Positions 16,463 through 50,478 of a stretch of 64,000 nt of DNA are shown here, piece after piece. The first letter of the stretch is position 1. The number at the start of each line of letters is the position of its first letter. Below the pieces are notes generated by a model. That model had not been told where the DNA came from. It did not search any database and saw only the letters and a list, made by a program, of their open reading frames with translations. Origin of the DNA: a virus; IMG/VR virus record IMGVR_UViG_3300008448_000038, positions 1-64,000 of that record. One strand, given 5' to 3'. Both the position numbers and the translations under genes were made by a program.

Positions 16463-16470
16463 TATCTATA
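16463..16470 (-). promoter_or_regulatory. Leaderless promoter octamer of gp4
   Basis: The minus strand reads TATAGATA, then TTGT, then the gp4 ATG. The octamer resembles the T4 late promoter TATAAATA, and a start of transcription seven bases after its sixth base would fall on the A of the ATG. There is no Shine-Dalgarno. It overlaps the plus-strand octamer of gp48. Confidence 0.55.
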
Positions 16471-16474
16471 CATA
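16467..16474 (+). promoter_or_regulatory. Leaderless promoter octamer of gp48
   Basis: TATACATA is followed by AAGC and the gp48 ATG at 16479. Layout and spacing are the same as at 47138 and 47689. It shares four bases with the divergent gp4 octamer, so the two promoters occupy the same 12 base pairs. Confidence 0.55.
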
Positions 16475-16478
16475 AAGC

Positions 16479-17240
16479 ATGGGAGTTTATAGATATCCAT
16501 TAGCATATGCAGCCGAAAATCCATTCTGGATTTACTTTTCTGCTGCCGATTACTCAGTCCGAGCACAGAATAGAACTAGGGCTGGAGTGGCTTCTAGAGC
16601 TGTCGAAACAGTTATATTGCCATTGCCTATGAACTATGATCTAGAAACAAAGCATACATTCAATGAAGAACTTAGCTTTGTTGGTCCCCACCTTAGCGTT
16701 GCTGGTATGGCAAATGCGGGTGGTCCATTGGCTCTGACTGAGCGTATAGCCTCTTCTGTCTTTGGTTTTGTGGAGCCATTAGTTGCCACGGAAACGTACA
16801 GAAGATTTTCAAATATTACTGAACTGTCGTTATTATCAGAAGCTAGACGGCAATTTAGATTTCAATATCTATTTGTTCCAAAGAATGCTCAGGAAGCCGA
16901 TGTTGTGTGGTCCATTTGCGATTTATTTAATACCATGTCTTATCCAGTTACTGGTGGAGTTCCAGAAAAGGCATATCCACCACCTCTATGGAGAATAGCA
17001 GGCAATAATTATAGAGTTACCTCTCAATGGCTACAAGAACCTTTAGTATGTGTATTGGGCGCGGTTGCAGTAAGCCCTATTCCACAGCAGGATGCTTATG
17101 TTCCTCGTTATAGAATAGACGGAAGTCCAGTAGCCACTAGACTGTCATTGACCTTTATGGAATTCGAACCCGGTACAAGAGTTCCCGGTGCTCTTGGTGG
17201 TATCAGAAGCAAGTCTGAAATTGCAGCAGGATTAGGCTAA
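16479..17240 (+). CDS. 48: Baseplate tail-tube cap protein gp48
   Basis: The 253-residue product caps the baseplate hub where the tail tube begins. The region 'RFQYLFVPKNAQEADVVWSICDLF' followed by 'MSYPV' and 'PPPLWRI' corresponds to the gp48 pattern of 'Y-x-F-x-x-R-x-x-x-E-x-x-x-V-x-x-I-x-x-x-F-R' and 'PP-x-W'. It is shorter than T4 gp48 (364), as in many T4-like phages outside enterobacteria. The C-terminus (SLTFMEFEPGTR) is the expected final strand. It opens the plus-strand baseplate operon and is divergent from gp4. There is no Shine-Dalgarno; the start follows a TATACATA octamer by four bases. Confidence 0.7.
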   Translation: MGVYRYPLAYAAENPFWIYFSAADYSVRAQNRTRAGVASRAVETVILPLPMNYDLETKHTFNEELSFVGPHLSVAGMANAGGPLALTERIASSVFGFVEPLVATETYRRFSNITELSLLSEARRQFRFQYLFVPKNAQEADVVWSICDLFNTMSYPVTGGVPEKAYPPPLWRIAGNNYRVTSQWLQEPLVCVLGAVAVSPIPQQDAYVPRYRIDGSPVATRLSLTFMEFEPGTRVPGALGGIRSKSEIAAGLG

Positions 17241-17941
17241 TGAAACTTAATATCAAAAATACTTTTACTTTATCAAAAATTGAAGGTAATAAAGATATCA
17301 AAATAGCAGATATCTTTGGTAAGATTAAGTTACCAGATGTAGTGGAAGAATCTTTTAGACCATCTGAATACTTTTCACCGGAACAAGTTTCTTATGCAAA
17401 ATATGGAGATTCAAATAGAAGTTTTCAAATATTACAAAAATCAAAGATTGTAAATCCAAAATCAGATTTACCAAAAACAAAATACTTTATTACTAAAGAA
17501 TTAAATTCTGTTTATTATATTTTAAACGCTCTTCCTAATTTACAGGTCGGTGATATCATTGTCAAAAAAGTAGGATCATTTTTTGATCCAACTAATAATT
17601 TTTTTGTAATAACTTCTATACAAAGATTAACAGATTCTACAGATAACATTGCTATTTCTACAAAATACAAAGGAAAATTACTTGCGACCGATGCTGTGCA
17701 AGTGATAAGAAATGGTGCTATCTTTTACGACGATGCTACTATAACCCAAAGTAGCACTAAAAATAAATTTCCTCTTAACTTCGTATCAGATGATGGTGGT
17801 AAGGTACAAAAGTATAATCCAACACTCATTAATTCACATTTCTCTGGAACAAAATCTCAATACGCATTTGCAGATACATATTCGTCAACCCAAAGTCAAG
17901 CATCAAGCGATCTAAGTACATTTACATTGAACAGACTATAA
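17240..17941 (+). CDS. 53: Baseplate wedge protein, gp53-like
   Basis: The 233-residue product has 'VSYAKYGDSNRSFQILQKSKIVNPKSDLP' at about residues 50-78. This fits the LysM-like core of gp53, where 'YYGD-x-x-x-x-W-x-I-x-x-x-N-x-I-x-NP-x-x-D-x-P' is conserved, although the Trp is replaced by Phe. In T4, gp53 joins neighbouring baseplate wedges. The position after gp48 and before hub, gp25 and gp6 genes fits. The C-terminal third is Ser, Thr and Asn rich and not recognisable. The start overlaps the gp48 stop as TAATG, so translation is coupled. Confidence 0.6.
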   Translation: MKLNIKNTFTLSKIEGNKDIKIADIFGKIKLPDVVEESFRPSEYFSPEQVSYAKYGDSNRSFQILQKSKIVNPKSDLPKTKYFITKELNSVYYILNALPNLQVGDIIVKKVGSFFDPTNNFFVITSIQRLTDSTDNIAISTKYKGKLLATDAVQVIRNGAIFYDDATITQSSTKNKFPLNFVSDDGGKVQKYNPTLINSHFSGTKSQYAFADTYSSTQSQASSDLSTFTLNRL

Positions 17942-17942
17942 T

Positions 17943-20438: not shown

Positions 20439-20439
20439 A

Positions 20440-21207: not shown

Positions 21208-21208
21208 T

Positions 21209-21583
21209 ATGGCAAAAGATTTTGATTTAAACTTAACAGTATCGGCAAAAAGCAAAGATTTTGTGCTTTTGAATACTACTTCTGCTTTGAATCAGACCAT
21301 TACAAATCTAGTCAATGTCAAAACAGGTGATATTATTTCAGATTTTGCCATAAATTCGCCTCTTTCAAGTTTAAACTATTCGGTTGATCCAATTTATAGA
21401 GAATATTATTTAAGTTTAATACCCGATTATCTTACTCATGTGACTAATGGAGAGATTGCGGAGGCAGAAATCACCACAAACAGCGTTACCAATAATAAAG
21501 TTTCTCTGGATATTCGTTATAAAACAAAATCAAATGCGTCTGGTAGATCAAATATAGTTAAAATAGAACAGAACTTATACTAA
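21209..21583 (+). CDS. 25: Baseplate wedge protein gp25
   Basis: The 124-residue product (MAKDFDLNLTVSAKSKDFVLL) has the gp25 layout: an N-terminal strand, 'TTSALNQTITNLVNVKTGDIISDFAINSPL' matching the family pattern 'A-I-x-x-S-I-x-N-L-I-x-T-x-x-G-E', and two C-terminal strands (EITTNSVTNNKVSLDIRYKTK). T4 gp25 has 132 residues. It is the inner wedge and sheath-initiating component of contractile machines. It sits immediately before gp6, its partner in the wedge core, and one base after the hub-like gene. The conserved Glu of the GE motif is Asp here, a mild deviation. Confidence 0.8.
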   Translation: MAKDFDLNLTVSAKSKDFVLLNTTSALNQTITNLVNVKTGDIISDFAINSPLSSLNYSVDPIYREYYLSLIPDYLTHVTNGEIAEAEITTNSVTNNKVSLDIRYKTKSNASGRSNIVKIEQNLY

Positions 21584-25284: not shown

Positions 25285-25302
25285 GCATACATAATAGTAT
25301 GC
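25285..25302 (+). promoter_or_regulatory. Leaderless promoter octamer and hairpin at the gp13 start
   Basis: CATACATA (25286-25293) ends five bases before the gp13 ATG (25299), with no Shine-Dalgarno. The DNA also reads GCATAC-ATAATA-GTATGC, a perfect 6-bp inverted repeat that contains the ATG. If transcription starts at the ATG, the hairpin would not form in the mRNA; from read-through transcripts it would hide the start codon. Confidence 0.5.
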
Positions 25303-26105
25303 CAGCATTAAATTCCAGAGAATCTTTAATAGATTACGCTTTTAGAGCTTTAGGATCACCTGTAATCGAAATAAATGTCGATATGCAGCAAGCCTATGAC
25401 AGGCTTGACGATGCACTCCAGTTCTTTGCCGAGAGGCATTTTGATGGAGTGGATCGTTGCTATTTTGATTATGTTGTCACTCAGCAAGACGTAGATCGCA
25501 AATATATCAATACAGATGCCTTTGGCCCCATGGTTGGTGCTGATGCGTCTGGCCGTCCGGATGGGCGAGACATTTTATCGATCATAAGAATTTTTCCTTT
25601 TGGTACTCATAGCTCAAACAACTTTTTTGACATTCGCTACCAGCTAGCGTTGAATGACTTCTTCGGTATTAATACTAATCTTAACACAAGCGGTGCTGCT
25701 CCAGTAGCAACTTATGACATTGCTAAAAGATATATCAGACTAATTGAAATGATGTTTGATCCAGAAAGAGCTATTCGATTCTCCAAGGTCACAAACAAGC
25801 TTCAAATTGAAACTGACTGGACTGAAATGAAAGCCGGAACACATCTAGCTGTCGAGGCATATGTTCTGTTAGACCCAGAAAGATACACAGAAATTTATAA
25901 TGACATTCTTCTAAAGAAATATGTAACGGCTCTTATCAAGAGACAATGGGGCGCAAATCTTTCAAAGTTTGATGGTGTTCAGCTTCCCGGTGGTATTGTC
26001 ACTAGAGGATCCTCAATTTTCGGAGAAGCAATACAGGAAATCGCCATCTTAGAAGAACAAGTTAGATCTGCGTATGAATATCCACCTGACTTCATGACAG
26101 GATAA
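25299..26105 (+). CDS. 13: Neck protein gp13
   Basis: The 268-residue product matches gp13: 'SRESLIDYAFRALGSPVIEINVDMQQAYDRLDDALQFF' at the N-terminus is the family signature (L-I-D-Y-x-L-R-x-L-G-x-P-V-x-x-I-N-V-x-x-x-Q-x-x-D-R-x-x-D-A-L), followed by 'VTQQDVDRKYI'. In T4, gp13 (309 residues) forms the ring under the portal that, with gp14, closes the head and receives the tail. The C-terminal helix (AIQEIAILEEQVRSAYEYPP) is also typical. It is the first gene of the neck-terminase block. It has no Shine-Dalgarno, and its start lies inside a short inverted repeat. Confidence 0.9.
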   Translation: MPALNSRESLIDYAFRALGSPVIEINVDMQQAYDRLDDALQFFAERHFDGVDRCYFDYVVTQQDVDRKYINTDAFGPMVGADASGRPDGRDILSIIRIFPFGTHSSNNFFDIRYQLALNDFFGINTNLNTSGAAPVATYDIAKRYIRLIEMMFDPERAIRFSKVTNKLQIETDWTEMKAGTHLAVEAYVLLDPERYTEIYNDILLKKYVTALIKRQWGANLSKFDGVQLPGGIVTRGSSIFGEAIQEIAILEEQVRSAYEYPPDFMTG

Positions 26106-27025: not shown

Positions 27026-27442
27026 ATGTCTGATATAACAAATAAAGATCAACTCAATAATTTTCTAGAAATTACAACACCTAAAGCCTTGAAGCAAGAG
27101 TCTTCTATAATTAAGAAAAACGTAGAAGATGACTATGAATATGCCCGTGATAATATTAAAGAAATATTAGAAAAGGGCAAGATGGCTTTGGATGGCATTC
27201 TTCAGGTTGCTCAGGACGGAGACTCCCCCAGAGCCTACGAAGTCGCTACAAACATGCTCAAGGCTCTTTCCGAGATCAATAAGGATCTCATGGATGTCCA
27301 TGTCAAGGTAAAGGATAGCGAAAGAACAACCATCAAACAAACTAATAATGCCATTTTTGTGGGTTCTACTTTGGATCTTCAGGACATGATAAATAAAGAA
27401 AGAAGTTCAAAGAAAGCAATAATACAGGATAACAATGTTTGA
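27026..27442 (+). CDS. 16: Terminase small subunit gp16
   Basis: The 138-residue product has the gp16 central helical pair: 'DDYEYARDNIKEILEKGKMALDGILQVAQDGDSPRAYEVATNMLKALSEIN', a short coiled-coil motif that forms the ring of the small subunit. gp16 of T4 has 164 residues and regulates packaging by gp17. The flanking N- and C-termini are polar and short. In T4 the order is 14-15-16-17; here gp16 directly follows gp14 and the gp15 gene comes after it. The stop overlaps the start of the gp15 fusion gene by eight bases. Confidence 0.88.
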   Translation: MSDITNKDQLNNFLEITTPKALKQESSIIKKNVEDDYEYARDNIKEILEKGKMALDGILQVAQDGDSPRAYEVATNMLKALSEINKDLMDVHVKVKDSERTTIKQTNNAIFVGSTLDLQDMINKERSSKKAIIQDNNV

Positions 27443-30400
27443 TTCATTTTATAACGATTGCATTAAAAAGAACACGATAGCGTTTGCTTCGTTATTTAAC
27501 AATATTTACGTCAATAGAGAAGATGCATCAGATTCTAAAAAAATCAAAGTGCCACTTGTTTATGGAGGCAAAGAAAAGTATGTAAGCCGTCTTCAGAATC
27601 CTTCTAGTATTTCTGAAAAAGATAAGCTTCAAATAACTCTACCCATGATGAGTTTTGATATGTCTAATCTGCAATATGATACGCAGAGACATAGAAATAA
27701 ACTTGAATTTAATAAATTATTTTATCAGGAAGATGGAGAGACAAAGGCTAAGGTAAAAATTGGTGAATATCCCTGCCTTATGCAATTTAATCTTGCGATT
27801 TATACTCGTAACATTGAAGAAAACTTTCAAATCATTGAGCAGATTGCGCCATACTTTACTCCAGAATACATTCTTACTCTAGATTTTGATAAGACTTTGA
27901 CTAGAGGTATTGATGTTCCGATTAATCTAGTTGCATCAAAGATCGGAAATGACTACGAAGGTGGATTCGGTAATCGTAGAGCCGTAGTTAGTACTCTACA
28001 ATTTGTTATGCGTACCTATTTGTTCGGCCCTGAGCGAGAAGCGACTCCTATTCTCACAACGGATTTTAATCTCAACACTCAGGATAGCTTTTTGCAATTC
28101 ATCACAGATGTTCAAGTCAACGATGATTTGTATCTCAATAACCAATCAATAACTGTAACTTGGAGACAGGGTGGAATATTCCCAAGAAATCCAACTATAG
28201 TTATTACAAATCTTTCCAATTATACTGAAGAAATTATTTATGATCCAGAATCCTTTGATGTAGGTGATGGAACAAATAGTGTTACATTTGCAATTCCAGC
28301 TTCAGCTCCATTGCTACAGCAACTTTATGTTAGAATATTTTTTGGAACAGTGTCAGACAATTCAACAGCGTTTGAAGTAAGATCAGCTGCTGGAAATATT
28401 TCTTTACTAAGATTGGCTAATTTTGCCGGAACATCATTTAATGATTTGATGTCTTCTAATCATTACTATTTTACTCAGAGTGGTGTAACACAATTTAATC
28501 GGGGTGATAATCTTGTCTTGGCTTATAATTATGGCTCATATGGTGATCTTAACATTAAAACACCCGGATTACTTGAATATTATCGTGCATTTGGTTTAAC
28601 ATTCAGAGCAAATACAATTGACAATCCACAAATTCCATTTGGTAGTGTCATACACAATGGTATGTGGGCTGGCATAAGTTATGACCAGAATAGAGTTTTA
28701 CCCTGTTTACCAATTTATATGCGCCCCGGAGGAAATGTAAATTTATATGCAAATCAAGGTGATGGTGTTTTCGGCACAACACAAGGCACATTGGCGAATA
28801 GAAGAACTAGTGAAGATATGTTCCAAGCAACATATGGTTCGCAGGCTTATTACATCAATGGATTTTGGGGATGGAATGGTACAACAAGTATTATAAGTAT
28901 TGGATCATATCCATCAGCGGGTATTACAATCGAAGCAGGATATAGCGGATATATTGTAGATAAAAATAATCAAAATAGATATCCAGATACAGGTAAATAT
29001 TCAACAGGCGTTACCCACTCTCAAGCTCAACCATCAATAAGAACGCTTTTTGATCCAACATTTACTCAGAAATTATATCCATCTAGAGGAGCTACTGGAT
29101 TAAGATCATGGGTTATTACTGCGTTTGGTAGTAACAACCCAGCCGCAATGTTATTTGATTCTGGTATTTTTGCTGGATCAACACTACCAAACTACCCACC
29201 GTATAGTGGTATTGATTATCTTGATTCGTTTGATAAGATGCGTTTGCCAATTTATATGGATTGTTATAATTTAGTCCATAATGGTAATACATTTTTAGTA
29301 CCTTCTCCGTTTACTCCAAATCTTGTTACTGATATGTTAGGTTTTACTGCTTATGCCGCAACGGGATTTACTGGAAGAGAAAATTATGCTGGTAAATTCG
29401 GAACTACTTATGTTGGTGGATGGAATAAATTATTCGATTTTGTTTATGCTGGAAAAAACATTAATGGAGTTACTTTTGTTCCACCTACTCCATGTGTAGA
29501 TATTATTTTTAATGATCATGAATTGCGGTGGGGATTGGGTTTAGGAACAGATTCTTTATTATTGTGGAAATTAATGTTGTTAGTTGATGGATTAACAACT
29601 GCATGGATTAATAAAGTAAAACAAGATCAATTCTGGCCGCAGCTTGAAGCAAAATATGCAGAATATCCGGGATTATCTTTTGATCGTATTTTTGATGGAA
29701 TGAAAAATGCATTTCTTTATGCTACCAGTGGTCCACTAAGTAAAAAAGGAATTCATGGAGGAATTCAATTTCCAATAGACGCATTACCATTACAAGAATT
29801 TTATGATAATGAATTTAAGAAATATTGGGGTGGTTTGCAAGAAACAACCGAACGCAGAAGTCCCGGATGTAAGTTTGCTCCTGTGCATGTTAATAGACTT
29901 CCAAGAGTAAAATCTACTGGTAGATTCCATGATGTTACTGCTCAAAGCTTTTCACAAGGAGTGACTTTACCATATGAATTGATATATCACTATCCTTACG
30001 GTTCTCCATATACTTATACTGATTTTCAAGCTAGGTATAGAAGAACTGGATATGCACCTACACCAGTAAACGCTATTACTTTTGCATTTGTGGAAAACGC
30101 AATTATACCTCAAAATAATCCTACTCTTGCACAGGTAAATAATGCGTCTAACAAATTAGTTCCTTGGTTTACATCAGAAAATCTCGGTCAGACGGGAACT
30201 ACTTTTATCTGTGGTATTTCATACAATCCACAATATTTCGAAACAAGCAATTCAGTTCCTACAATTGGGGATGGAACATTAGTAACATTCTTTGGCGAGT
30301 ATTATGATCCTACTCAAAGACCATTTGCGGGTACAAGACTATCCGAAAAATATGAGCCATTCCTCGCTATGAAGGATGAATCTAGAATTATTCGTGGAAT

Positions 30401-31490
30401 TATAGAAGAAAATATGAACCATGGAGTTTCTGGAATTTTTATTTATAACAATATCCAATTCAACAGAGTTTCATATCACATTCCTCACGGTTATGAGAAT
30501 AGTTGGTTTATGGATTTTATTCCATCTTCTGCTAATAATAATGCTGAAGGATTTACTTATACAGATCCAGCAATATTTTCAAAAACAAATTTTACAGCTA
30601 ATCCAAGAACAAATCCAAATTATCAACCAATTAATTTTTATCACTCATATAATGAAAATATCTTTATATCGAAATTATTGACCAATTTACCCCTTAACAT
30701 CCTCAATCAATCAGTTATTTTCCAAGGACCTATAACAAATGAAAATGATGGAAGTGCTGGTTACTATGGAATTCATCCTAAAACATGGAATAATTTCAAG
30801 TATAATGATGAAATACTTTTGAATCATATTTTGTGGGACATGGAAGTAGCAACTCATGGAAGAACATATGAATATCTTTCAAGTTCAGACGATATAAACA
30901 TTGCAGAGAGTTTACGGGTTGAAGTCGGAGGATTTAATATATCTAAATTGAATCCAGCACTATTAAGCAAAGTAAGATTGTTAGCTACAAACGCATCAGA
31001 CCAAAATCTTATATTGCATAGAATAACCCTACCAATCCCATATATTTTAACTTCTGATTATGGAAGACCAGATCAAGACACTTATTATGATAATTGGTAT
31101 AATAATCATTTTGCCGAGAATGTTTTGGCAACAAGCGTTGATCCTCAAACAGGTAATACCCTTGATAATATCAACCTTATAACCACGGGAAATAGAGATT
31201 TGGATTTTTATACTAAATCAGTAGTAACTGAAAGTAATGGAACCCACTCATGGAGAACTTTAAGAACAAATCCAAATATTAGAAGATTTAGTGTAAATGT
31301 TTTTGCTGGCAATACACTGGTAGGCAATTTAATTCCAAGTAAATATTACCCCATGGGAGTTTGGCTAATAACAGATGAAGTTTCTATTCTCGCTGATGGA
31401 ACCACATTCAACAATTACAATTTACGTTTTGAATATCAAGATGCTGGTCCAATGGCAGATGGAATTACTACTGCACCTTATAGAACATGA
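27435..31490 (+). CDS. 15: Tail terminator gp15 with a giant C-terminal extension
   Basis: The 1351-residue product starts with a clear gp15 domain (residues 1 to about 205): 'SLFNNIYVNR', 'KIKVPLVYGGKEKYVSRLQ', 'ITLPMMSFDMSNLQYD', 'PCLMQFNLAIYTRN' and 'TLQFVMRTYLFGPE' all match the tail-sheath stabiliser of T4-like phages. T4 gp15 is 272 residues, so about 1150 residues are extra. The extension is rich in Asn, Tyr, Gly, Thr and Phe, strand-rich, without Cys-rich or enzymatic motifs, and more AT-rich than the gp15 part. It probably projects from the neck as a fibre or collar-like arm. It sits between gp16 and gp17 and overlaps both. Confidence 0.85.
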   Translation: MFDSFYNDCIKKNTIAFASLFNNIYVNREDASDSKKIKVPLVYGGKEKYVSRLQNPSSISEKDKLQITLPMMSFDMSNLQYDTQRHRNKLEFNKLFYQEDGETKAKVKIGEYPCLMQFNLAIYTRNIEENFQIIEQIAPYFTPEYILTLDFDKTLTRGIDVPINLVASKIGNDYEGGFGNRRAVVSTLQFVMRTYLFGPEREATPILTTDFNLNTQDSFLQFITDVQVNDDLYLNNQSITVTWRQGGIFPRNPTIVITNLSNYTEEIIYDPESFDVGDGTNSVTFAIPASAPLLQQLYVRIFFGTVSDNSTAFEVRSAAGNISLLRLANFAGTSFNDLMSSNHYYFTQSGVTQFNRGDNLVLAYNYGSYGDLNIKTPGLLEYYRAFGLTFRANTIDNPQIPFGSVIHNGMWAGISYDQNRVLPCLPIYMRPGGNVNLYANQGDGVFGTTQGTLANRRTSEDMFQATYGSQAYYINGFWGWNGTTSIISIGSYPSAGITIEAGYSGYIVDKNNQNRYPDTGKYSTGVTHSQAQPSIRTLFDPTFTQKLYPSRGATGLRSWVITAFGSNNPAAMLFDSGIFAGSTLPNYPPYSGIDYLDSFDKMRLPIYMDCYNLVHNGNTFLVPSPFTPNLVTDMLGFTAYAATGFTGRENYAGKFGTTYVGGWNKLFDFVYAGKNINGVTFVPPTPCVDIIFNDHELRWGLGLGTDSLLLWKLMLLVDGLTTAWINKVKQDQFWPQLEAKYAEYPGLSFDRIFDGMKNAFLYATSGPLSKKGIHGGIQFPIDALPLQEFYDNEFKKYWGGLQETTERRSPGCKFAPVHVNRLPRVKSTGRFHDVTAQSFSQGVTLPYELIYHYPYGSPYTYTDFQARYRRTGYAPTPVNAITFAFVENAIIPQNNPTLAQVNNASNKLVPWFTSENLGQTGTTFICGISYNPQYFETSNSVPTIGDGTLVTFFGEYYDPTQRPFAGTRLSEKYEPFLAMKDESRIIRGIIEENMNHGVSGIFIYNNIQFNRVSYHIPHGYENSWFMDFIPSSANNNAEGFTYTDPAIFSKTNFTANPRTNPNYQPINFYHSYNENIFISKLLTNLPLNILNQSVIFQGPITNENDGSAGYYGIHPKTWNNFKYNDEILLNHILWDMEVATHGRTYEYLSSSDDINIAESLRVEVGGFNISKLNPALLSKVRLLATNASDQNLILHRITLPIPYILTSDYGRPDQDTYYDNWYNNHFAENVLATSVDPQTGNTLDNINLITTGNRDLDFYTKSVVTESNGTHSWRTLRTNPNIRRFSVNVFAGNTLVGNLIPSKYYPMGVWLITDEVSILADGTTFNNYNLRFEYQDAGPMADGITTAPYRT

Positions 31491-36100: not shown

Positions 36101-37507
36101 AATTATGCTGCTTATTATACAGCCACTCCAAGAGCCATAACTAGTATTTTTGTTGGTAGTGGATCGACATTAGGTGGAATAACAATAACACCCCCAACAA
36201 CTGGATGGCCTGCGTCCGCAACTCTTACTGTAAGAGTAAGCCCAATATTTAAATCATTCATTAATATAACAAGTGATTTAGATACATTGAGAACTAATTC
36301 TTATGTTAGAGAGACATCTTTTACCACTGCCGCTCAAACAACAACAGGTGGCGGTGGTGGTGGATCATCTAGCGGTTCAGTAAGCGTATCCGAATCTGTG
36401 GTTACTGGAGTAGCATTTACCTCGACTGAAAATGATTTCTATGCTGGATTCCTATGCGGAACAACTGCATATAACATTATCACTAACAACAGCACTGCTT
36501 CATATTCAGTACTCACAAGCAGCAGCACAGCCTACGCGAATGCTAAAGCTGCGTTTGATGCTGGGACATTGACAGCAAATACTTCAACAGATGTCGAAAT
36601 TCATTCTCTTCTTAACTTCATGGATTACGGCGGAAACATCATTGTCTCCCCAACTATCGATGGACTGTTGGGAAGCAACTACGAATATGACATTGTATTC
36701 ACCGAAGATAACAAGAGATATGGCGAATTGATGCGTATCGGTTCCGAAAAGAACCACGCAATTGTTATTGTCGGTACATCTCTTGAGGAGGACGCAGCCT
36801 CGTTTGCAGCTCCAGCCTATACGAATCTAAATTCCGCAGGGCTTGTTGATGGATTGACCTATATGACAACTGCAAATAAGGGTGAATATGTGTTCTCAGT
36901 ACTTGGCTACAAGAATAGAACTCGCTTCTATGGCTCTGGAACTGAGACTGTTCGCTTGTATCTCTCGTCAGATGTTGCAGGCGCATATGCTCGCTCATAC
37001 GTCGAGAATAAGTACCATCTGTCAAGCTCTGGTTCGGCAAGAGGTGGAATTAGAACATATTCAAACATCACTCCAACTATAGTAGATCGTGATCTCTCTG
37101 GTTATTACACCAGAGGAATAAATCCAATCTACATCCCAAGCGGTACAAATAGAGCCGCAATTTGGGGAGATGCTACTGGTATAACTACAGGAAATGAAGT
37201 GTATAGAAAGTCAGCTTCTGTCTCTAAGAACACTAGCACAATCAAGAAAGAATTTAAGAAGATCTTTGAGGACTTCCAATTCGAACAAAATAATGCTGGT
37301 ACAAGAGCACAGTTTGTTTCAAGAGCAACTACTGTTCTTGATAAGTTACAATCAATCGGAGGCCTTGCTTCTTATATCCTAATTTGTAACGAAACAAACA
37401 ATACTCCATCTGTAGTTGCTCAGAAGAGATTGGTTGTTGACTTGACAATAGTACCAAATAATTCGATTGAATCAATAGTGTTGAATTTCGTTCTTAATCA
37501 AATCTAA
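33125..37507 (+). CDS. 18: Tail sheath protein 1 with a giant N-terminal arm
   Basis: The 1460-residue product ends in a sheath core of about 370 residues (from about 1090): 'NDFYAGFLCGTTAYN', 'VEIHSLLNFMDYGGNI', 'RGINPIYIPSGTNRAAIWGD' and 'IICNETNN' with the final 'LVVDLTIVPNNSIESIVLNF' strand that every sheath protein has. A glycine-serine linker (TTGGGGGGSSSGS, near residues 1073-1085) joins it to about 1070 upstream residues rich in Ser, Thr, Asn, Phe and Gly without recognised domains. The arm is far more AT-rich than the core. I infer a sheath subunit carrying a long surface arm. T4 gp18 has 659 residues. The start codon follows the gp17 stop directly. Confidence 0.88.
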   Translation: MAELTHSHNISGTLIGLTPGSAPLTVGLTFSVDGVSFSSVIFDILISNATFDFSIPYTSIDDLRADNVSSEFVVANNSNGLVVSNTGTTWNHFIGITLFSPQSNVFNGGLANQILNQDLHYRSRNTFTLKYGAFGQTGSGAIGEVASSTRGETLSFRPFNIVSATNGVAGSTLGLTLESANIQRYYVGIGTGATFYGIVSLLGCTNNISLNSSNLTSTQISEINADYLDPNISGSDAKFNTLRRIVDTSGATIFNTSFTEFVVPKHIPTGSYYLMPIPNSFFGLPVFSSDEPLTNVSANLITLPQTNINITNNISSGLTGVYSLSSGVTHFTNPFSSRVPILSKGFSNVDFADKTLSVFDPITFNLVATPYGITNNLTGNTFHKLDYGFNTRGTTLYGGGAVSNISFIPPLFGFIPLGLTVGNTLTVLLDGVTFYEKVYNPYNIIFNTDTVAHFYTTDSQIATNKRFFRLINESGDLSARRNLNHINRAFYRVDFNTHSNPWGFTGFTFGQGSTQSELKVFYGNPANGISFILPINTGSPADFYSLTGDDVFIPIQGTASGSTLVPGNSVEIHYQNRPLGYLEKLNLYDASGNFALGITIADNRTFIPRNTTEIGFIRKTFDQSNIETFVVPNLNSVGSTGTARISFTRGDGISFEFGSTPITTPFRTFSPIHTVGNISGLTLIATGVTQQQGNPVNFTRFIAPAVDLMRITVNHGLTNLESGIVGRNNIHSRYYMQSNVDNFLPDGTFYTGYLSFIIDSVGPENVVNNSINVTNRTLRSFRESALERANTLNTINGISLSIPLRNFEGVITEGWPFDTIEGNSSLTQLMNYFNGPPLTEAQLSAVFDDFNYPQYDTGFTLMFDQGDNPPETFNGGEWVLANPGSFLRYSGGSTFFPSTAFSFADTTISFPHYIFYDYRITGVTLSSTSSIQAQQSLTTTITVKDLPHSSIFDGLRLSVLNGASELFTKNLLYSTSSTNDYRIPGYSGLGITNYAAYYTATPRAITSIFVGSGSTLGGITITPPTTGWPASATLTVRVSPIFKSFINITSDLDTLRTNSYVRETSFTTAAQTTTGGGGGGSSSGSVSVSESVVTGVAFTSTENDFYAGFLCGTTAYNIITNNSTASYSVLTSSSTAYANAKAAFDAGTLTANTSTDVEIHSLLNFMDYGGNIIVSPTIDGLLGSNYEYDIVFTEDNKRYGELMRIGSEKNHAIVIVGTSLEEDAASFAAPAYTNLNSAGLVDGLTYMTTANKGEYVFSVLGYKNRTRFYGSGTETVRLYLSSDVAGAYARSYVENKYHLSSSGSARGGIRTYSNITPTIVDRDLSGYYTRGINPIYIPSGTNRAAIWGDATGITTGNEVYRKSASVSKNTSTIKKEFKKIFEDFQFEQNNAGTRAQFVSRATTVLDKLQSIGGLASYILICNETNNTPSVVAQKRLVVDLTIVPNNSIESIVLNFVLNQI

Positions 37508-37513
37508 TAAATA
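37506..37513 (+). promoter_or_regulatory. Candidate leaderless promoter before sheath 2
   Basis: AATAAATA is followed by GTAT and the ATG at 37518, with no Shine-Dalgarno. It is seven of eight bases identical to the T4 late promoter TATAAATA. It would let sheath 2 and the genes behind it be transcribed apart from the armed sheath 1 gene. Confidence 0.5.
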
Positions 37514-37517
37514 GTAT

Positions 37518-38651
37518 ATGCCGATTACCACAACCACACAATCAAACACATTTAACATAACCCCAGTGTCTGCCACAGATCACTACACTGGGTTTTTGTG
37601 CTCCGCATCGACATATAATTTATTAGGAACAACTACTGATTCATTTACAAATCTTGAAACCATTTCTGATTCAATTTCCACTTTGGCTGAAAGAACAAGC
37701 TACACCAGTATTGTAACAAACAGCCTCGTTGATAAAGAAATTCATTCAATTTTTAATTGCATGGAATATGGTGGTAAAATGGTTATTGCGGGAACCACCG
37801 CAGGGCTTGCTTTATCATCAGCCAAGATTTCAGAAGTCATTACAGAAGATTCTTCTAGATATTCAGATGTTATAAGTGTTGCAAAGGCACGACTTAACTG
37901 CAATGCTATTATTGGATCTGATAGAGATCAATCTGGAGATTATACGAATCCAGATCAAGCCGCAATCATATCATCAGTTACAACTCAATTAGGAGCTACT
38001 GGTACAACTGCAATTTCTTATCTTGCAGCCACAATAATTGGCTATAAGGAAAGACCAAGATTCTATACAGGCAGTTCATCATCTACAAGTGCCATTACAA
38101 TCTTCCTTGTATCTGATGCTGCCGGAGCGAACGCAAGAGCTTCTGCTCAATCAAAACCTTATCTCACTTCTGCTGGTGTTTATAGAGGCGAGCTTTTAAA
38201 TTATACAAACGTAACTCCTAAGCTGTCATTTACATCATCGACTACACTGGCTTCAAGAGGAATAAATTATTTTAATTATCTTCAATCAAAGGGTAAATAT
38301 TACCTTTGGGGAGATGAAACTGGATTCCGAGATAGCACAAGCGCAAAGAGTTCCTACGGATTCTCAAGGGCATTCCTTTATATTAATCGTGAAGTTACAT
38401 CTATCTTGGATGATTATGTCTTTGAATTCAATGATGCTACCACTAGATCCGCCATCAAATCAAAAATGCAAAATATTCTTGATCCTATGGTTTCTAACGG
38501 ATCCTTGGTTAGCTACACTTTAATTTGCGACGAGACTAATAATCCTCAAACAGTGATCAATCAGAGACAGCTAAAGGTAGATCTAACAATAGTACCAAAT
38601 CTACCAGTTAAGAGTATTACTCTAAGCTTCAGCATATCTCTGTTGTCATGA
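37518..38651 (+). CDS. Tail sheath protein 2 (minimal sheath paralogue)
   Basis: The 377-residue product is nearly co-linear with the sheath core of the preceding gene: 'DHYTGFLCSASTYNLLG', 'VDKEIHSIFNCMEYGGKMVI', 'RGINYFNYLQSKGKYYLWGDETG', 'LICDETNNPQTVINQRQLKVDLTIVPN'. It has no arm and is shorter than T4 gp18 (659), so it may be the main structural sheath subunit of the tail. Its own promoter-like octamer precedes it, which fits a need for more copies than the armed paralogue. The stop overlaps the next sheath gene as ATGA. Confidence 0.9.
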   Translation: MPITTTTQSNTFNITPVSATDHYTGFLCSASTYNLLGTTTDSFTNLETISDSISTLAERTSYTSIVTNSLVDKEIHSIFNCMEYGGKMVIAGTTAGLALSSAKISEVITEDSSRYSDVISVAKARLNCNAIIGSDRDQSGDYTNPDQAAIISSVTTQLGATGTTAISYLAATIIGYKERPRFYTGSSSSTSAITIFLVSDAAGANARASAQSKPYLTSAGVYRGELLNYTNVTPKLSFTSSTTLASRGINYFNYLQSKGKYYLWGDETGFRDSTSAKSSYGFSRAFLYINREVTSILDDYVFEFNDATTRSAIKSKMQNILDPMVSNGSLVSYTLICDETNNPQTVINQRQLKVDLTIVPNLPVKSITLSFSISLLS

Positions 38652-40060
38652 ACATAGTTAACTACGGACAAACTTCTACACCAAGCGATTTTAAAGTTCT
38701 CGCTTTTGTTACTCCATTAACGCAGAGTGTTTTGTCTGGTATTACCACTTCCAGCCTTGGATCTGATCAGTTAACTTATGTAGAATCTTTAGATGATTTT
38801 GTCAATACGCTATTTGGTTATACTGCCATAACATTTCGATCTGGTCCCGATTCTGATGACATTAAAAGAGCAGATGTAGAATTACACGGAATCATGACGA
38901 TGTTGGAATATGGGGCATCAGTATATGTCATGAATACTACTGGTCTGACGGTATCGGGTGCATATACATCAAAAAATATTCAAAGTGTTGTTAATTCTAC
39001 GGGTGCTGGGTGCATTGTTAATAATATTTTTAACGGACTTACTGGTTCTGGGTTTACTGGAATTCAAGATACTCCAATAATCATTCAAAACACAGAATTT
39101 GAAAAAAACTTATTAAATTATTTTATTCTTGAAGTAAAAGAAGAAGGAAATACAGCAGGAACGCCTTTTACATTTAATGGTCAACTTGGTGAAATCTATT
39201 CAAATTTTGAAGATGATATTGCTCCCGCTGATGTATTTACTGAGGAATTCCCAACATTAGGAATTTTTGCATATGACAATTTCTCATCAAGTGTTTATGG
39301 TACTTCAGAATATAATAATTTTATTGTTTCAAATGGAAAACTAATCGATCAAAATATTATAGAGCTTTTGGGTGTAAAGATAAGAAATCGATGCATCAAT
39401 CCAGAATCAGATCCAGAAGCTACAAGTGAACTTTGGACTAAAATTCCAGTTCCTATGATTTATGATCTAGCAGGGCAATTTGCTAGATTGAAATTGGCTG
39501 GCACTCCGTGGGGAAGCACATCAAACTTTTTAATCGGTCCATTGCTTAATATTGTACAAGAGGATACTGAATATGTCTTGCCATTTTCTGAAAGTAATTC
39601 GGTAGCTGAATTTAAAAATACTATAACAGGACTTATCAATAATAGAATAAATTATGCAACATTCTATAGTTTTGATGGCATTTATGGTTGCTATTTCTTA
39701 AGCGATCTAACTTGTGAATCTCAAACCGATAATTCAGCACCATTTACTTTAGCTCTCAGCGAAAAGAGTGTTTATTTTGTTAATATAACTAAATTTATTA
39801 AGACTCAAATAACTTCAATTTGTGAAAATTATGTGTTTGAGCTTAACAATGAAGTTACTCGGTTACAGCTAACCTCCGAAATACTTACATTTATGAATGG
39901 TCTGTTGTCTAATGGGGCTATTAATTCATTCAATGTAGTGGCTGATGATACCAATAACACTCCGGTAGATCGCATAAATAGAAGGTTGAAGGTAGATGTA
40001 GCCTATACAACCAATCCAACTAATGATTTTGTGGAGCAATCAATAATTATCATACCTTAA
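38648..40060 (+). CDS. Tail sheath protein 3 (diverged paralogue)
   Basis: The 470-residue product is more distant but retains the sheath order: 'ADVELHGIMTMLEYGASVYVM' (compare 'VEIHSLLNFMDYGGNIIV' in sheath 1), 'FDGIYGCYFLSDLTCES' in place of the 'YYLWGD' strand, 'FIKTQITSICENYVFELNNEVTR' and the terminal 'VADDTNNTPVDRINRRLKVDVAYTTNP'. An inserted region of about 90 residues in the middle lengthens it compared with sheath 2. It might occupy special positions, such as the first or last sheath ring, or form a mixed sheath; these are inferences. The start overlaps sheath 2 (ATGA), so the two are co-translated. Confidence 0.85.
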   Translation: MNIVNYGQTSTPSDFKVLAFVTPLTQSVLSGITTSSLGSDQLTYVESLDDFVNTLFGYTAITFRSGPDSDDIKRADVELHGIMTMLEYGASVYVMNTTGLTVSGAYTSKNIQSVVNSTGAGCIVNNIFNGLTGSGFTGIQDTPIIIQNTEFEKNLLNYFILEVKEEGNTAGTPFTFNGQLGEIYSNFEDDIAPADVFTEEFPTLGIFAYDNFSSSVYGTSEYNNFIVSNGKLIDQNIIELLGVKIRNRCINPESDPEATSELWTKIPVPMIYDLAGQFARLKLAGTPWGSTSNFLIGPLLNIVQEDTEYVLPFSESNSVAEFKNTITGLINNRINYATFYSFDGIYGCYFLSDLTCESQTDNSAPFTLALSEKSVYFVNITKFIKTQITSICENYVFELNNEVTRLQLTSEILTFMNGLLSNGAINSFNVVADDTNNTPVDRINRRLKVDVAYTTNPTNDFVEQSIIIIP

Positions 40061-40087: not shown

Positions 40088-40624
40088 ATGAGCAACGCAA
40101 ATTCACTAAGTTATTTCAAACAAAAATTCAACGGTGGCACTCGCCAAAACCGATTTGAGGTTGAAGGTAATTGGCCTAGCATCATTACCGAGAATCCTCA
40201 AACTTGCTTTCATGTAGTATCTGCCAGTATGCCTCAATCAGATGTTGGCATCATTCAAATTCCTTATAGAGGAAGAGTTTTAAATCTTGCTGGGGATAGA
40301 GAATATGAAGCATGGAATTTGGTCGTTTATGACGATACCGGAACAAATTCTTTGTGGAAAGCATTTACAAGTTGGTCAAATAGAATTAATAAAATTTTAG
40401 GAAATGTTACGGATAGTAACAATCTTAACTTTGTAAAAACAAAAACTAACTGGAAGGTTAGACAATTAAATACAACCAATAATGGCACTCTTCGTGAATT
40501 GGAGCTACTTGGTTGTTGGCCAGCATCTGTAGGTGCTTTGAATTTTAATGCTTCAAATGTTAATCCTGTTGTTTTTAATGTAACAATGAATTACGATCAA
40601 TTTAGGATAACAAAATACTCATGA
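40088..40624 (+). CDS. 19: Tail tube protein gp19, copy A
   Basis: The 178-residue product is a gp19-type tube subunit (T4: 163): 'NRFEVEGNWP' near the N-terminus, the 'CFHVVSASMPQSDVGIIQIPYRGRVLNLAGDREYEAWNLVVYDD' core and 'LWKAFTSWSNRIN' helix are the family signature. The subunits stack into the DNA-conducting inner tube. An AGGGTAG Shine-Dalgarno is present, and AATACATA lies about 18 bases further upstream. It overlaps the second tube gene by four bases (ATGA), so both copies are made from one transcript. Confidence 0.9.
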   Translation: MSNANSLSYFKQKFNGGTRQNRFEVEGNWPSIITENPQTCFHVVSASMPQSDVGIIQIPYRGRVLNLAGDREYEAWNLVVYDDTGTNSLWKAFTSWSNRINKILGNVTDSNNLNFVKTKTNWKVRQLNTTNNGTLRELELLGCWPASVGALNFNASNVNPVVFNVTMNYDQFRITKYS

Positions 40625-41196
40625 GCTGCGATAGCAAAATTTCAACCTTCAGAGATGCTTTTACCTCATTCCCAAGAGGAAACAGATATTCTATTTCCGG
40701 GCAAATTCCCAATTCAAATAATGGGTGGGGAAATGATAATACTGGTGGATTCCATATTCATGCTCTAGCATTAAATGTTCCTCCAGCAAATCTTACAACT
40801 CTTCGGTATAACTATAGAGGTAGAACTCTAAAGAATCCCGGAGATAGACTATTTCCATTCTGGAATGTCACAATTCTAGATGACACGGGGACTGATACTG
40901 TTTGGGAAGCATTCCACAAATGGAGTAACAGTATAAACGACCATGATTCAAATCTTAGAACTACCTCTGCTTCTAGCTACGATTCTTACAAGCAGAATGG
41001 TTGGATTGTTAAACAACTTGGGTTAAACGGCGACACAATTAAAAGCGTTACGCTTGAAGGATGTTTTCCTTACATTGTAGGCCCAATAGAACTTGATATG
41101 AATCAAAAAAATACCGTGTGTCAATTTAGCATGGTTATAGCATACGATAGCGTGGTTGATGTGTTTACAAAAGACGGAACAATTAATATTAATTAA
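40621..41196 (+). CDS. Tail tube protein gp19, copy B
   Basis: The 191-residue product aligns with copy A by eye: 'GNRYSISGQIPNSN', 'FHIHALALNVPPANLTTLRYNYRGRTLKNPGDRLFPFWNVTILDDTG', 'VWEAFHKWSNSIND' and 'LEGCFPYIVGPIELDMN' correspond to copy A's 'NRFEVEGNW', 'IPYRGRVLNLAGDREYEAWNLVVYDDTG', 'LWKAFTSWSNRIN' and 'LLGCWPASVGALNFN'. The two are clearly paralogous but strongly diverged. A tail tube with two subunit types, or a special ring at one end of the tube, would explain keeping both. The start overlaps copy A as ATGA. Confidence 0.88.
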   Translation: MSCDSKISTFRDAFTSFPRGNRYSISGQIPNSNNGWGNDNTGGFHIHALALNVPPANLTTLRYNYRGRTLKNPGDRLFPFWNVTILDDTGTDTVWEAFHKWSNSINDHDSNLRTTSASSYDSYKQNGWIVKQLGLNGDTIKSVTLEGCFPYIVGPIELDMNQKNTVCQFSMVIAYDSVVDVFTKDGTININ

Positions 41197-44087: not shown

Positions 44088-44581
44088 ACTACTTAGAACA
44101 AACATATTTAAAGCAAATTGCTCAACTTCAGGAAGAGTTGAATGTTCTCAAGTCTCAAGAAAAGACTCTCGCAGAGCAAACTTCATTTGACTCTGAAGCT
44201 GATGTAACAAATTATGCAGAAAAAGCTTTAAACAATATGTCCCCAGAGACTTTAGTAAGAGATGCTGCCACTGCATTAATAGGATCTGCGGCAGTTAAGC
44301 AGTCATTAGGAGATATTAACCTTAAAGATATTCTTCAAAAGAATATGAAAGATTTTTTGGACGTTACTCTAGTACAAAGTCTTCGTGACGTTGGTAGTTC
44401 GTTAGCAAATACATTAGTCAATGCTGCTGGTAGAAATCCATTCCAGTTAGCAAAGGCAGTTAGCGTTACACGCTACAATCCATTTGCAATTTTTGATCCA
44501 ACAGAAAGATCTGATGGAACTAAAAGAGTAAGTCCACAAACCGCTGATTCATTACTGCCATCAGCTCAAGATGCAGAATAA
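44084..44581 (+). CDS. Hypothetical protein between protease and scaffold (head-associated candidate)
   Basis: The 165-residue product (MNYLEQTYLKQIAQLQEEL) has an N-terminal coiled coil followed by Ala- and Leu-rich helices (DAATALIGSAAVKQSL, GSSLANTLVNAAGRNPFQLAKAV). 'KTLAEQ' at residues 27-32 resembles a gp21 cleavage site (L-A-E). T4 has no gene at this exact place. Its position between protease and scaffold and the possible cleavage site suggest a core or internal head protein. Start and stop are tightly packed: ATGA overlap with gp21 and 20 bases before gp22. Confidence 0.65.
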   Translation: MNYLEQTYLKQIAQLQEELNVLKSQEKTLAEQTSFDSEADVTNYAEKALNNMSPETLVRDAATALIGSAAVKQSLGDINLKDILQKNMKDFLDVTLVQSLRDVGSSLANTLVNAAGRNPFQLAKAVSVTRYNPFAIFDPTERSDGTKRVSPQTADSLLPSAQDAE

Positions 44582-44587
44582 TAAATA
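44580..44587 (+). promoter_or_regulatory. Late-promoter-like octamer before gp22
   Basis: AATAAATA matches seven of eight bases of the T4 late promoter TATAAATA. It lies just upstream of the AGGAG Shine-Dalgarno of gp22, so the leader would be very short. Confidence 0.35.
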
Positions 44588-44601
44588 ATTTAGGAGAAAA
44601 T

Positions 44602-45659: not shown

Positions 45660-45667
45660 CCTAAATA
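45660..45667 (+). promoter_or_regulatory. Late-promoter-like octamer before gp23
   Basis: CCTAAATA resembles TATAAATA at six of eight bases and is followed by ACACAGGAG, the Shine-Dalgarno of the major capsid gene. The same CCTAAATAA occurs before regA at 56390. Predicted transcripts would begin next to the Shine-Dalgarno. Confidence 0.35.
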
Positions 45668-45686
45668 ACACAGGAGAAAAATAAAA

Positions 45687-47081: not shown

Positions 47082-47107
47082 TAAGTTTCTATAAAAGGAA
47101 ATGAGAA

Positions 47108-47134
47108 GGGAGAGGAGAAATCCTCTCCCTTTTT
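47108..47134 (+). terminator. Rho-independent terminator after gp23
   Basis: GGGAGAGGA-GAAA-TCCTCTCCC forms a perfect 9-bp GC-rich stem with a GAAA tetraloop, followed by TTTTT. It lies 27 bases after the capsid stop codon and separates head genes from the next block. Confidence 0.95.
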
Positions 47135-47137
47135 CAT

Positions 47138-47145
47138 TATACATA
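47138..47145 (+). promoter_or_regulatory. Leaderless promoter octamer after the capsid terminator
   Basis: TATACATA begins four bases after the terminator U-tract and is followed by CATT and the ATG at 47150. It is the same octamer as before gp48. There is no Shine-Dalgarno, and the predicted transcript starts at the ATG. Confidence 0.55.
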
Positions 47146-47149
47146 CATT

Positions 47150-47671
47150 ATGGCGCAAGCTGATTATCCAGTTAATATTAGTCAACTTAATAGGAATTTT
47201 TATACCTTTAAGTTGTCTAGAATTCCTACAACAACTTTCTTTTTACAGAAAGTATCGTTGCCCGGTATTATATCTCCAAATTTTGATCAGCCAACCACAT
47301 TAGGTGTTCCAGTAAAAAGACCACTTGGAACTTATAATTTTGCAAATCTTGATATTGAATTCATTGTAGATGAAAACATGACTAACTGGTTGGAGATTTA
47401 TAGATGGATGAGAAATATTGGTAATCTTGATTCAGATTGTACTTATAATATTCCTGAAAATAAATTTACATCAACCGGAACTCTTATTATTCAGAAGAGT
47501 TCTTATACAGCAAATATTACTGCTACCTTCTTTGACATATTCCCCATATCATTAGGTGGCATTGGTTTTGATACAACCCTGCCTGCATCCGAGCCAGCAA
47601 GAGTAAGTGCTAGTTTTGCCTATACATACTACAGCTTTAATCCCGATCCGGGAAATACTACTTTAGATTGA
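47150..47671 (+). CDS. Tail-tube-like structural protein
   Basis: The 173-residue product (MAQADYPVNISQLNRNFYTF) resembles a widespread protein of T4-like phages of aquatic bacteria with 'YPTNVxxLxxNxFxLxIxRxPNxxYFxQxVxLPGIxL'. Here 'LNRNFYTFKLSRIPTTTFFLQKVSLPGI' and 'LDIEFIVDENMTNWLEIYRWMRNIG' fit, and the latter matches the tube-protein helix. It therefore looks like a fourth member of the tube superfamily in this window. It stands between capsid and uvsY, where related phages have a tail gene such as gp3, so a tail-completion or terminator role is possible. Its start is leaderless: TATACATA ends four bases before the ATG. Confidence 0.7.
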   Translation: MAQADYPVNISQLNRNFYTFKLSRIPTTTFFLQKVSLPGIISPNFDQPTTLGVPVKRPLGTYNFANLDIEFIVDENMTNWLEIYRWMRNIGNLDSDCTYNIPENKFTSTGTLIIQKSSYTANITATFFDIFPISLGGIGFDTTLPASEPARVSASFAYTYYSFNPDPGNTTLD

Positions 47672-47688
47672 TTTTATTTGTATTTGTG

Positions 47689-47696
47689 TATACTTA
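47689..47696 (+). promoter_or_regulatory. Leaderless promoter octamer of uvsY
   Basis: TATACTTA is followed by AATT and the uvsY ATG at 47701, without a Shine-Dalgarno. One base differs from TATACATA at 16467 and 47138. Confidence 0.5.
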
Positions 47697-47700
47697 AATT

Positions 47701-48135
47701 ATGAATTTCGATGAACTTAAAGAACAGGTCGAAAAAGACCTCAAGATTGATATTACCGAATTGGCCCAAGAATCTGTAATAACACCACAGATTCATAATA
47801 AGTATTTGCTCTTTTTCAAGAAATATAAAGAAGAACTTTCTATGGAAGAAAGAACCATGAAAGTATTAAGAAAATATAAATGGCTTTACTACATGGGCAA
47901 ATTGAGCAGAGAAGAATTAGAAAAGCTTAAATGGGAACCATTTGAACTCAATATTCTCAAGACAGATGTAGATAAGTTCATTGAAGCTGATGATGACATT
48001 ATCAACCTTGAAGGGAAGATCGCAGAAAAGAAAGAAATGGTAAATTATCTTGATGGAGTCATTAAGATTGTAAATGGTCGCCAATGGAATATTAGATCAG
48101 CAATTGATTGGATTAAATTCACTAATGGACAATGA
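47701..48135 (+). CDS. uvsY: Recombination mediator UvsY
   Basis: The 144-residue product loads the UvsX recombinase onto gp32-coated DNA. It is helical and close to T4 UvsY in length (137). 'YLLFFKKYKEELSMEERTMKVLRKYKWLYYMGKL' and the C-terminal 'NGRQWNIRSAIDWIKFTNG' are the conserved parts (compare 'K-x-W-x-Y-Y-x-G-K' and 'R-x-x-x-I-x-x-x-I-x-W-x-x-F-x-x-G'). The stop overlaps the uvsW start by 11 bases, as these recombination genes are commonly paired. No Shine-Dalgarno is present; TATACTTA ends four bases upstream of the ATG. Confidence 0.92.
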   Translation: MNFDELKEQVEKDLKIDITELAQESVITPQIHNKYLLFFKKYKEELSMEERTMKVLRKYKWLYYMGKLSREELEKLKWEPFELNILKTDVDKFIEADDDIINLEGKIAEKKEMVNYLDGVIKIVNGRQWNIRSAIDWIKFTNGQ

Positions 48136-49618: not shown

Positions 49619-49621
49619 ATA
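49614..49621 (+). promoter_or_regulatory. Late-promoter-like octamer before the Sm-like gene
   Basis: CATAAATA matches seven of eight bases of the T4 late promoter and is followed after a few bases by the GGAGG Shine-Dalgarno of the gene at 49637. It overlaps the uvsW stop codon. Confidence 0.4.
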
Positions 49622-49636
49622 CTAATGGAGGTCATT

Positions 49637-50353
49637 ATGGAAGTAGACTACAAGATCTTTAAGTTGAAAAGTGGTGAAGAAATAATTGGCTTGATCGATA
49701 GTCAGGATGATATGACCATTAAAATTAGTAGACCCATGGTTGTGAAATCGGTTCTCATGGTTGACAACTCTGGTTATCCAAAAGAAGTTATGATCATGCG
49801 TAATTGGCTTGAATTGACCAACGAGTTGGATGTTCAATTGCCAAAAGATCATATTGCCACTACTCTAAATCCTGCTAAGGAAACTGTTTTTCTATACGAG
49901 AAACAAAAAATGCGCGAAGATCAAGAATATCTCTATAAGCAAATGATAGAAGATGTGACTCCTAAGCTTCCAAGTGAGTTGGGATTTTCTGGAATGAATC
50001 CGCAAATGATGAATATGATTCAAAAGAAAATGGAAGAAGAACTTTTTGGCAAGACTTCCAAAAAGGAAGAAGAAGATACTTCTACCCCCGAACCTCCAGA
50101 AAAGAAACCAAATATGGTTGGAATGTTTTTATTTTTCCCACCAGATATTATTGCAGATCTGATTGATACTGGAGTTTTAGATCCTGAGATGTTTGCTGAA
50201 CTCGCTGAAGATGATGCGTTGATTCCTGAAATGGAAAGACTCTCAGAAAAAGAACTTAAAGAAATTGATTTGAGTGATTGGCCGGATGATCCAAGCAAAC
50301 TTCTTCAAGATAACTCTGAAGATATATCTGAGGAAGACTCAGAGGATACTTAA
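49637..50353 (+). CDS. Sm-like phage protein with an acidic C-terminus
   Basis: The start is set at the ATG at 49637 because GGAGG (49627-49631) lies directly before it; the in-frame ATG at 49625 includes that Shine-Dalgarno. The 238-residue product begins MEVDYKIFKLKSGEEIIGLIDSQDD, a short barrel-like domain also seen at 384-701. After it come a helical part (EKQKMREDQEYLYKQM), a proline-rich linker (TPEPPEKKPN) and an extremely acidic C-terminus (ISEEDSEDT). Genes with this N-terminus stand between uvsW and gp55 in other T4-like phages of aquatic bacteria. An RNA- or protein-binding role is possible but not shown. Confidence 0.75.
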   Translation: MEVDYKIFKLKSGEEIIGLIDSQDDMTIKISRPMVVKSVLMVDNSGYPKEVMIMRNWLELTNELDVQLPKDHIATTLNPAKETVFLYEKQKMREDQEYLYKQMIEDVTPKLPSELGFSGMNPQMMNMIQKKMEEELFGKTSKKEEEDTSTPEPPEKKPNMVGMFLFFPPDIIADLIDTGVLDPEMFAELAEDDALIPEMERLSEKELKEIDLSDWPDDPSKLLQDNSEDISEEDSEDT

Positions 50354-50381
50354 AGTACTCTATAGTATCTAATAAGTATAA

Positions 50382-50423
50382 TTTCCCTTGTCCATCGCGT
50401 ACACGCTCATTGTAGCAAGGAAA
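50382..50423 (+). other. Intergenic stem-loop upstream of gp55
   Basis: TTTCCCTTG (50382-50390) and CAAGGAAA (50416-50423) pair as an 8-bp stem with one bulged C, around a loop that itself contains GCG-TACA-CGC. The 125-base gap between the Sm-like gene and gp55 has no frame of note. A terminator without U-tract, an RNA element or a protein site are possible. Confidence 0.3.
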
Positions 50424-50466
50424 ACAATTCTGTCAATACCCCCATTGCTCTTATGTTATTTGGACG

Positions 50467-50474
50467 TATAATGT
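50467..50474 (+). promoter_or_regulatory. Promoter of gp55, leaderless
   Basis: TATAAT (50467-50472) is a perfect sigma-70 -10 hexamer, and the A of the gp55 ATG is exactly seven bases after its last T. A possible -35 or activator box, CATTGCTC, lies at 50443-50450. A host-type promoter is what gp55 needs, because it must be made before late transcription begins. No Shine-Dalgarno is seen. Confidence 0.5.
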
Positions 50475-50478
50475 AATT

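Follow-up and report, generated by a model that had tools for sequence, protein, structure and literature searches.

In a large, uncultured and mainly lake-derived clade of T4-like phages, leaderless mRNAs have probably become the product of much of the early as well as the late transcription. Individual genes would have changed repeatedly between a leaderless and a Shine-Dalgarno (SD)-led version, and some pairs of divergent leaderless genes would share a compact bidirectional late promoter of 20-34 bp. The 'lake clade' label is approximate, the habitat being taken from literature sample context and contig names. Judged from the genome sequences, the -10 elements of these phages stand so near to the ATG that the RNA very likely starts on its A, which would yield leaderless mRNAs. 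Comparison of the predicted starts demonstrates the spacing, its two modes, the missing SD, the recurrence of the layout and the split between early and late genes.

The sites before structural genes would be T4-type late promoters (NATANATA), read by the host RNA polymerase together with gp55, gp33 and gp45, and the late +1 would lie five bases (mostly four in the 81-kb phage analyzed here) after the octamer. Upstream of uvsY, gp55, polymerase and dUTPase, the sites would be sigma70-type promoters with the -10 element at -12 from the ATG, and for both classes translation by the host ribosome would begin at the 5'-terminal AUG with no SD involved.

Late octamer sites in the 81-kb phage

The window, i.e. 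the whole stretch of DNA that was analyzed, comprises the first 64,000 bases (1-64000) of a record of 81,198 bases from an uncultured T4-like myovirus, the 81-kb phage. Genes for gp4, gp13, gp14, gp15-17, gp18, gp19, gp20, gp22 and gp23 were found in the record, and further genes for UvsY, UvsW, gp55, gp46/47, gp45, gp44, gp62, gp33 and gp32; the DNA polymerase gene is located beyond the 64-kb window. The gp23 protein shows ~56% identity at best to that of cultured phages. All three T4 late-transcription proteins are encoded, i.e. the late sigma factor gp55 (50479..51135, + strand; PHROG 234), the late co-activator gp33 (12672..12899, +; PHROG 254) and the sliding clamp gp45 (54376..55074, +; PHROG 223).

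The original prediction listed eight octamer-spacer-ATG strings at the starts of gene blocks, and these were confirmed letter for letter, in position and in strand. Six of the eight fit NATA(A/C/G)ATA; the other two, before uvsY and gp55, read TATACT and TATAAT. The first late gene on the plus strand, for a baseplate tube-cap (gp48-like) protein (16479..17240; PHROG 230), is preceded by the octamer TATACATA and the 4-nt spacer aagc (16467..16478, +; ATG at 16479), and the divergent gp4-like head closure gene (16021..16458, -; PHROG 218) by TATAGATA and the spacer ttgt (16459..16470, -; ATG at 16458). The two octamers, at 16467 (+) and 16470 (-), overlap by TATA, and 20 bp separate the two ATGs; both octamers are invariant in nine sequences and the spacer varies. 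The gp4 divergent pair is found also in the relatives G001, G006, G009 and G011, with 20-34 bp between the ATGs (31-34 bp in G006, G009 and G011), and there are nine divergent leaderless pairs with ATGs 20-34 bp apart, gene pairs other than that of gp4 included. In T4, gp4 and gene 53 likewise diverge, but gene 53 has a gap of 28 nt and an SD.

The gp13-like head-tail adaptor gene (Ad2; 25299..26105, +; PHROG 211) follows the octamer CATACATA and the spacer atagt (25286..25298, +), and its orthologues have octamer gaps of 5, 6 or 8. A tail-sheath paralogue (37518..38651, +; PHROG 23) follows AATAAATA and the spacer gtat (37506..37517, +); the preceding gene's stop codon overlaps with this octamer, which is invariant in 11 sequences. 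The gene after gp23 (47150..47671, +; PHROG 45), predicted to encode a tail-tube-fold protein of the gp3/gp19 family, follows TATACATA and the spacer catt (47138..47149, +); the homologue in a relative matches cyanophage gp3. The sixth site, AATACATA with the spacer gtat (8271..8282, -), precedes a 55-aa ORF and falls within the end of the preceding gene, and homologues with the same layout are found in G001, G004, G006 and G009.

As predicted, no SD stands before the listed genes; elsewhere in the phage SDs are used, e.g. for gp22 and gp23. The gp22 gene provides the contrast within the window, with an ordinary late promoter of the octamer AATAAATA, a leader and an SD (taggagaaaat) at 44580..44601 (+).

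Tail-sheath profiles match three adjacent proteins (33125-37507, 37518-38651 and 38648-40060), in the first of these confined to the C-terminal part, which suggests a multi-protein sheath. The tail-tube fold (PHROG 45) is predicted in four proteins (15459-16031 on the minus strand, 40088-40624, 40621-41196 and 47150-47671). Residues 1-225 of a 1351-aa protein (27435-31490) match the gp15 sheath stabiliser, with the remainder having no match, and a 1725-aa protein (2929-8106, -) contains RCC1-like beta-propeller repeats adjoining a tail-like match.

Octamer spacing and the gene after gp23

The T4 late octamer starts at -13 (PMC2988020), so that with a gap of 5 nt between octamer and start codon +1 coincides with the A of the ATG. 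In the 81-kb record, eight starts have ATA[ACG]ATA ending 4-6 nt before the ATG, whereas the frequency at other offsets predicts 0.23 (Poisson p ~2e-10); two of these eight are doubtful, because the octamer-bearing start at 21209 is coupled to the preceding gene and the site at contig position 71863, outside the window, has an SD-like stretch. Ten diverged relatives have 40 starts at gap 4-6 (4.2 expected). The octamer-N4-6-ATG motif, whose equal frequency before coupled genes the original prediction had set as a refuting condition, precedes 12 of 550 coupled starts vs 66 of 473 other starts in 13 records (odds ratio 7.3, p 5e-13). The p-values here and below overstate independence, as the loci are related by descent.

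The octamer-to-ATG gap is bimodal in 80 related gp23 loci (59-100% identical) and 12 long relatives, with a sharp mode at 5 without SD and a broad mode at ~14-30 with SD. For the 80 gp23 loci, the ATAnATA-to-ATG gap has a peak at 5 (52 sites), hardly any sites at 8-13 and a second, broad accumulation at 14-27; the peak at 5 was not reproduced with control motifs of matched composition. The 66 sites at gap 4-6 in 13 long records have a mean anti-SD duplex energy of 0.0 kcal/mol and an SD in 6%, vs -5.4 kcal/mol and an SD in 71% for the 70 sites at gap 14-30 (p 5e-14). Several findings count against a start on the A of the ATG: some octamers are at gap 7-8, the doubtful site at 71863 has its SD-like stretch, the 81-kb phage's own subclade has its short-gap mode at 4 instead of the T4-predicted 5, which still fits sigma-type spacing, and many genes in the same phages retain SD leaders.

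A pyrimidine (T or C) precedes the ATG in 53 of 55 sites at gap 4 or 5, vs 44 of 70 SD-led starts. This near-constant pyrimidine before the A, and the main peaks, with octamers exactly 5 nt from the ATG and sigma70-type hexamers exactly at -12 (see below), both of which place +1 on the A for the respective promoter type, make it unlikely that transcription starts 1-4 nt upstream of the ATG to give very short leaders with non-SD translation; such starts would account for 24 octamer sites that have a gap of 7-8 and no SD, among them gp13 orthologues (gap 8), and for which leaders of ~1-3 nt are predicted.

For the gene that follows gp23, the gap is 4-7 in 62 of 73 scored loci, with an SD in 0% of these, and 10-31 in 11 loci, with an SD in 82%. 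The distance from the gp23 stop codon to the octamer is alike in short- and long-gap loci (median 59 nt), with the ATG shifting from 72 to 85 nt. Hence, the octamer keeps its place relative to gp23 irrespective of an ATG at 5 or at ~20 nt beyond it, which argues for a promoter and not for a translation signal. The gp23 gene ends with a predicted intrinsic terminator (47103..47134, +; -25.9 kcal/mol, z -4.7) only 3 nt before the octamer, and thus a terminator stands between the octamer and any upstream transcription. SD-led orthologues keep the octamer by this terminator, at 16-31 nt from the ATG, i.e. the octamer does not track the start codon, and the pattern search in the 12 long relatives gave 64 matches vs 13 for the pattern read backwards. 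With these observations, we regard as very improbable that the octamers are AT-rich translation enhancers (e.g. S1-binding) or chance products of an AT-rich genome, with the transcripts arriving from far upstream, even though unconditioned genome-wide counts are in its favor: the search for NATANATA-N4/5-ATG over the whole genome, as proposed with the original prediction, yielded 8 occurrences with 5.1 expected from Markov shuffles and hence no excess, and the enrichment is visible only relative to gene starts. Least probable is that the octamer-adjacent ATGs, which were picked from the ORF alone, are not true starts and that a downstream codon with an SD is used, since the family profiles of UvsY (from residue 1), gp4 (residue 2 on profile position 3) and DNA polymerase align from residue 1-2, and since the N-termini of gp55 (its coding N-terminus being conserved in relatives), of the baseplate protein and of the sheath paralogue are conserved from Met.

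In a gp23 tree, the phage and its relatives fall in an 81-row clade (SH-aLRT 99) outside the sampled cultured phages. At least 9-11 changes are needed to explain the distribution of the leaderless state on this tree, which indicates that it was switched repeatedly. A variant octamer, TCTACATA, is found at gap 4-5 after gp23 in the loci L100-L102 and L035; it is reminiscent of phage Aeh1, for which a C at -12 has reportedly been observed.

Sigma70-type sites before early genes

The sites before uvsY (TATACTTA, 47689) and gp55 (TATAATGT, 50467) had been included with the late octamers; this assignment was given up, as both are sigma70-type -10 hexamers (TATACT and TATAAT, respectively) with -35-like hexamers. 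The TATACT is placed at -12 from the uvsY ATG (47689..47700, +; UvsY, 47701..48135, +; PHROG 231) with TTGATT 15 nt upstream, and the site is kept by six orthologues in other records. The TATAAT is placed at -12 from the gp55 ATG (50467..50478, +) with TTGCTC as the -35-like hexamer 16 nt upstream, and is kept in two relatives. Beyond the window, further candidate leaderless sites of the sigma70 type precede genes at contig positions 65382, 68891, 79305 and 80159; the genes with such abutting sites include those for polymerase and dUTPase.

When the octamer genes were removed, a peak of TATAAT-like hexamers remained at -12 from the ATG. With a -35 element required in addition to the sigma70-type -10, 38 sites are found clade-wide at exactly -12, vs 2.8 per offset elsewhere; examples of TTGACA-N16-TATAAT-N6-ATG occur in G010 and G009. 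The sigma70 class comprises genes for DNA polymerase, helicase, dUTPase, UvsY, gp33 and gp55, and the octamer class comprises head, neck, tail and baseplate genes. Among the gene families with the layout, 35 are late and 28 early, and 10 of the late and 12 of the early families have it in at least two records. An abutting layout, i.e. a putative -10 element that places +1 on the A of the ATG, is thus strongly supported for the octamer and the sigma70 class, both being sharply peaked.

The sigma70-type peak before replication and regulatory genes implies that leaderless starts serve early and late promoters, and the leaderless layout as a feature of late promoters only was rejected for this reason. 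As far as predicted starts can tell, leaderless initiation characterizes gene expression throughout the clade and is not confined to the late promoters.

Comparison with known phages and bacteria

In T4, the textbook case of late transcription, the late mRNAs have SD leaders. The T4 late promoters (TATAAATA) resemble those of the lake phage in octamer sequence, in their use for structural genes, in having no -35 conservation and in the encoded gp55, gp33 and gp45, but the T4 octamers have leaders whereas the lake-phage octamer abuts the start codon. In a scan of the T4 late region, every octamer start was leadered (gaps of 10-49, mostly 21-28, most with an SD), and no octamer was found at gap 4-6. 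The original prediction of a T4-type late-promoter class that produces leaderless mRNAs, unlike T4, is strongly supported for the octamer sites by a sharp peak of the gap at the distance between promoter and transcription start in T4, by an SD that is missing only in that class, and by the absence of the layout from the T4 late region. It is amended in that the uvsY and gp55 sites are of the sigma70 type and the property is not late-specific, that the same phages have ordinary SD-led late promoters, and that some sites would have leaders of ~1-3 nt.

Cyanophage (Kyanoviridae) late promoters, NATAAATA in S-PM2 and Syn9 (PMC2984593), are like those of the lake phage in consensus, as is the gene order in the gp23 area. 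The same scan of the Syn9 and S-WAM2 late regions revealed no gap of 4-6 before structural genes and only gaps of 18-47 nt; in P-SSM2, one small gene has a gap of 5.

The layout is present after gp23 in two cultured SAR11 myophages, HTVC008M (AATAAATA-aacat-ATG) and Mosig EXVC030M (GATAAATA-ttagt-ATG), and the idea of its absence from every cultured T4-like phage was therefore dropped. Octamer-N5-ATG sites are few in both phages, where late genes with an octamer are mostly leadered, and in the OM43 phage Melnitz the gene after gp23 is leadered as well (gap 22). In an earlier study of SAR11 myophages, late promoters were not found (PMC7029224), and our literature search retrieved no description of leaderless T4-type late mRNAs. 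As HTVC008M and Mosig carry the layout, the claim is testable in culture.

The phiKZ late promoter, TATG with the G as +1 (PMC7598289), is able to overlap the start codon, as here. The machinery is probably unrelated: phiKZ uses a phage multisubunit RNA polymerase and no upstream octamer, whereas here an octamer is conserved at 4-5 nt from the start codon and gp55, gp33 and gp45 are encoded.

In bacteria, the start of 'TA-led' leaderless genes is preceded by TANNNT at ~12 bp (Zheng 2011, PMC3160421), and -10-adjacent ORFs are described for Deinococcus-Thermus (PMC12340547). Their geometry equals that of the sigma70 class, with a -10 hexamer at -12 from the ATG; these genes are known from bacterial chromosomes, whereas here the arrangement is predicted for a T4-like phage with a lytic lifestyle and carried over to a late sigma factor that the phage itself encodes. 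In phage C48C1 (L165:30980, 33486 and 34380), TTGAC(A/G)-N17-TATAAT is located at -12/-13 from the ATG of genes for DNA polymerase, a methyltransferase and primase, and the late genes are leadered.

If the proposed mechanism is true, the hosts translate leaderless mRNA efficiently, or the phage alters the ribosome. If confirmed, the gp55 promoter would have been re-used for leaderless mRNAs in an uncultured phage group, a sequence rule would be available to call starts and promoters in such genomes, and a natural series would be at hand in which one promoter drives leaderless or SD-led versions of the same gene.

As host clues, psbA, bS21 and WhiB were sought in 13 records and were absent; gp23 relatives in bacterial genome bins were discarded as a clue, being scattered over several phyla in what looks like binning noise. 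The relative G010 contains a permuted two-piece tmRNA (L139:5354-5611, -; Rfam RF04321) adjoining a tRNA-Tyr gene, and marine Melnitz-like phages have a permuted tmRNA as well (PMC9004378). Products of some leaderless late genes without an assigned function share recurring N-terminal motifs, i.e. an MDYLxNYYKNLCE family in G005, G006 and G009 and several of the form MxSFKxYLIE, which are possibly virion-targeting sequences.
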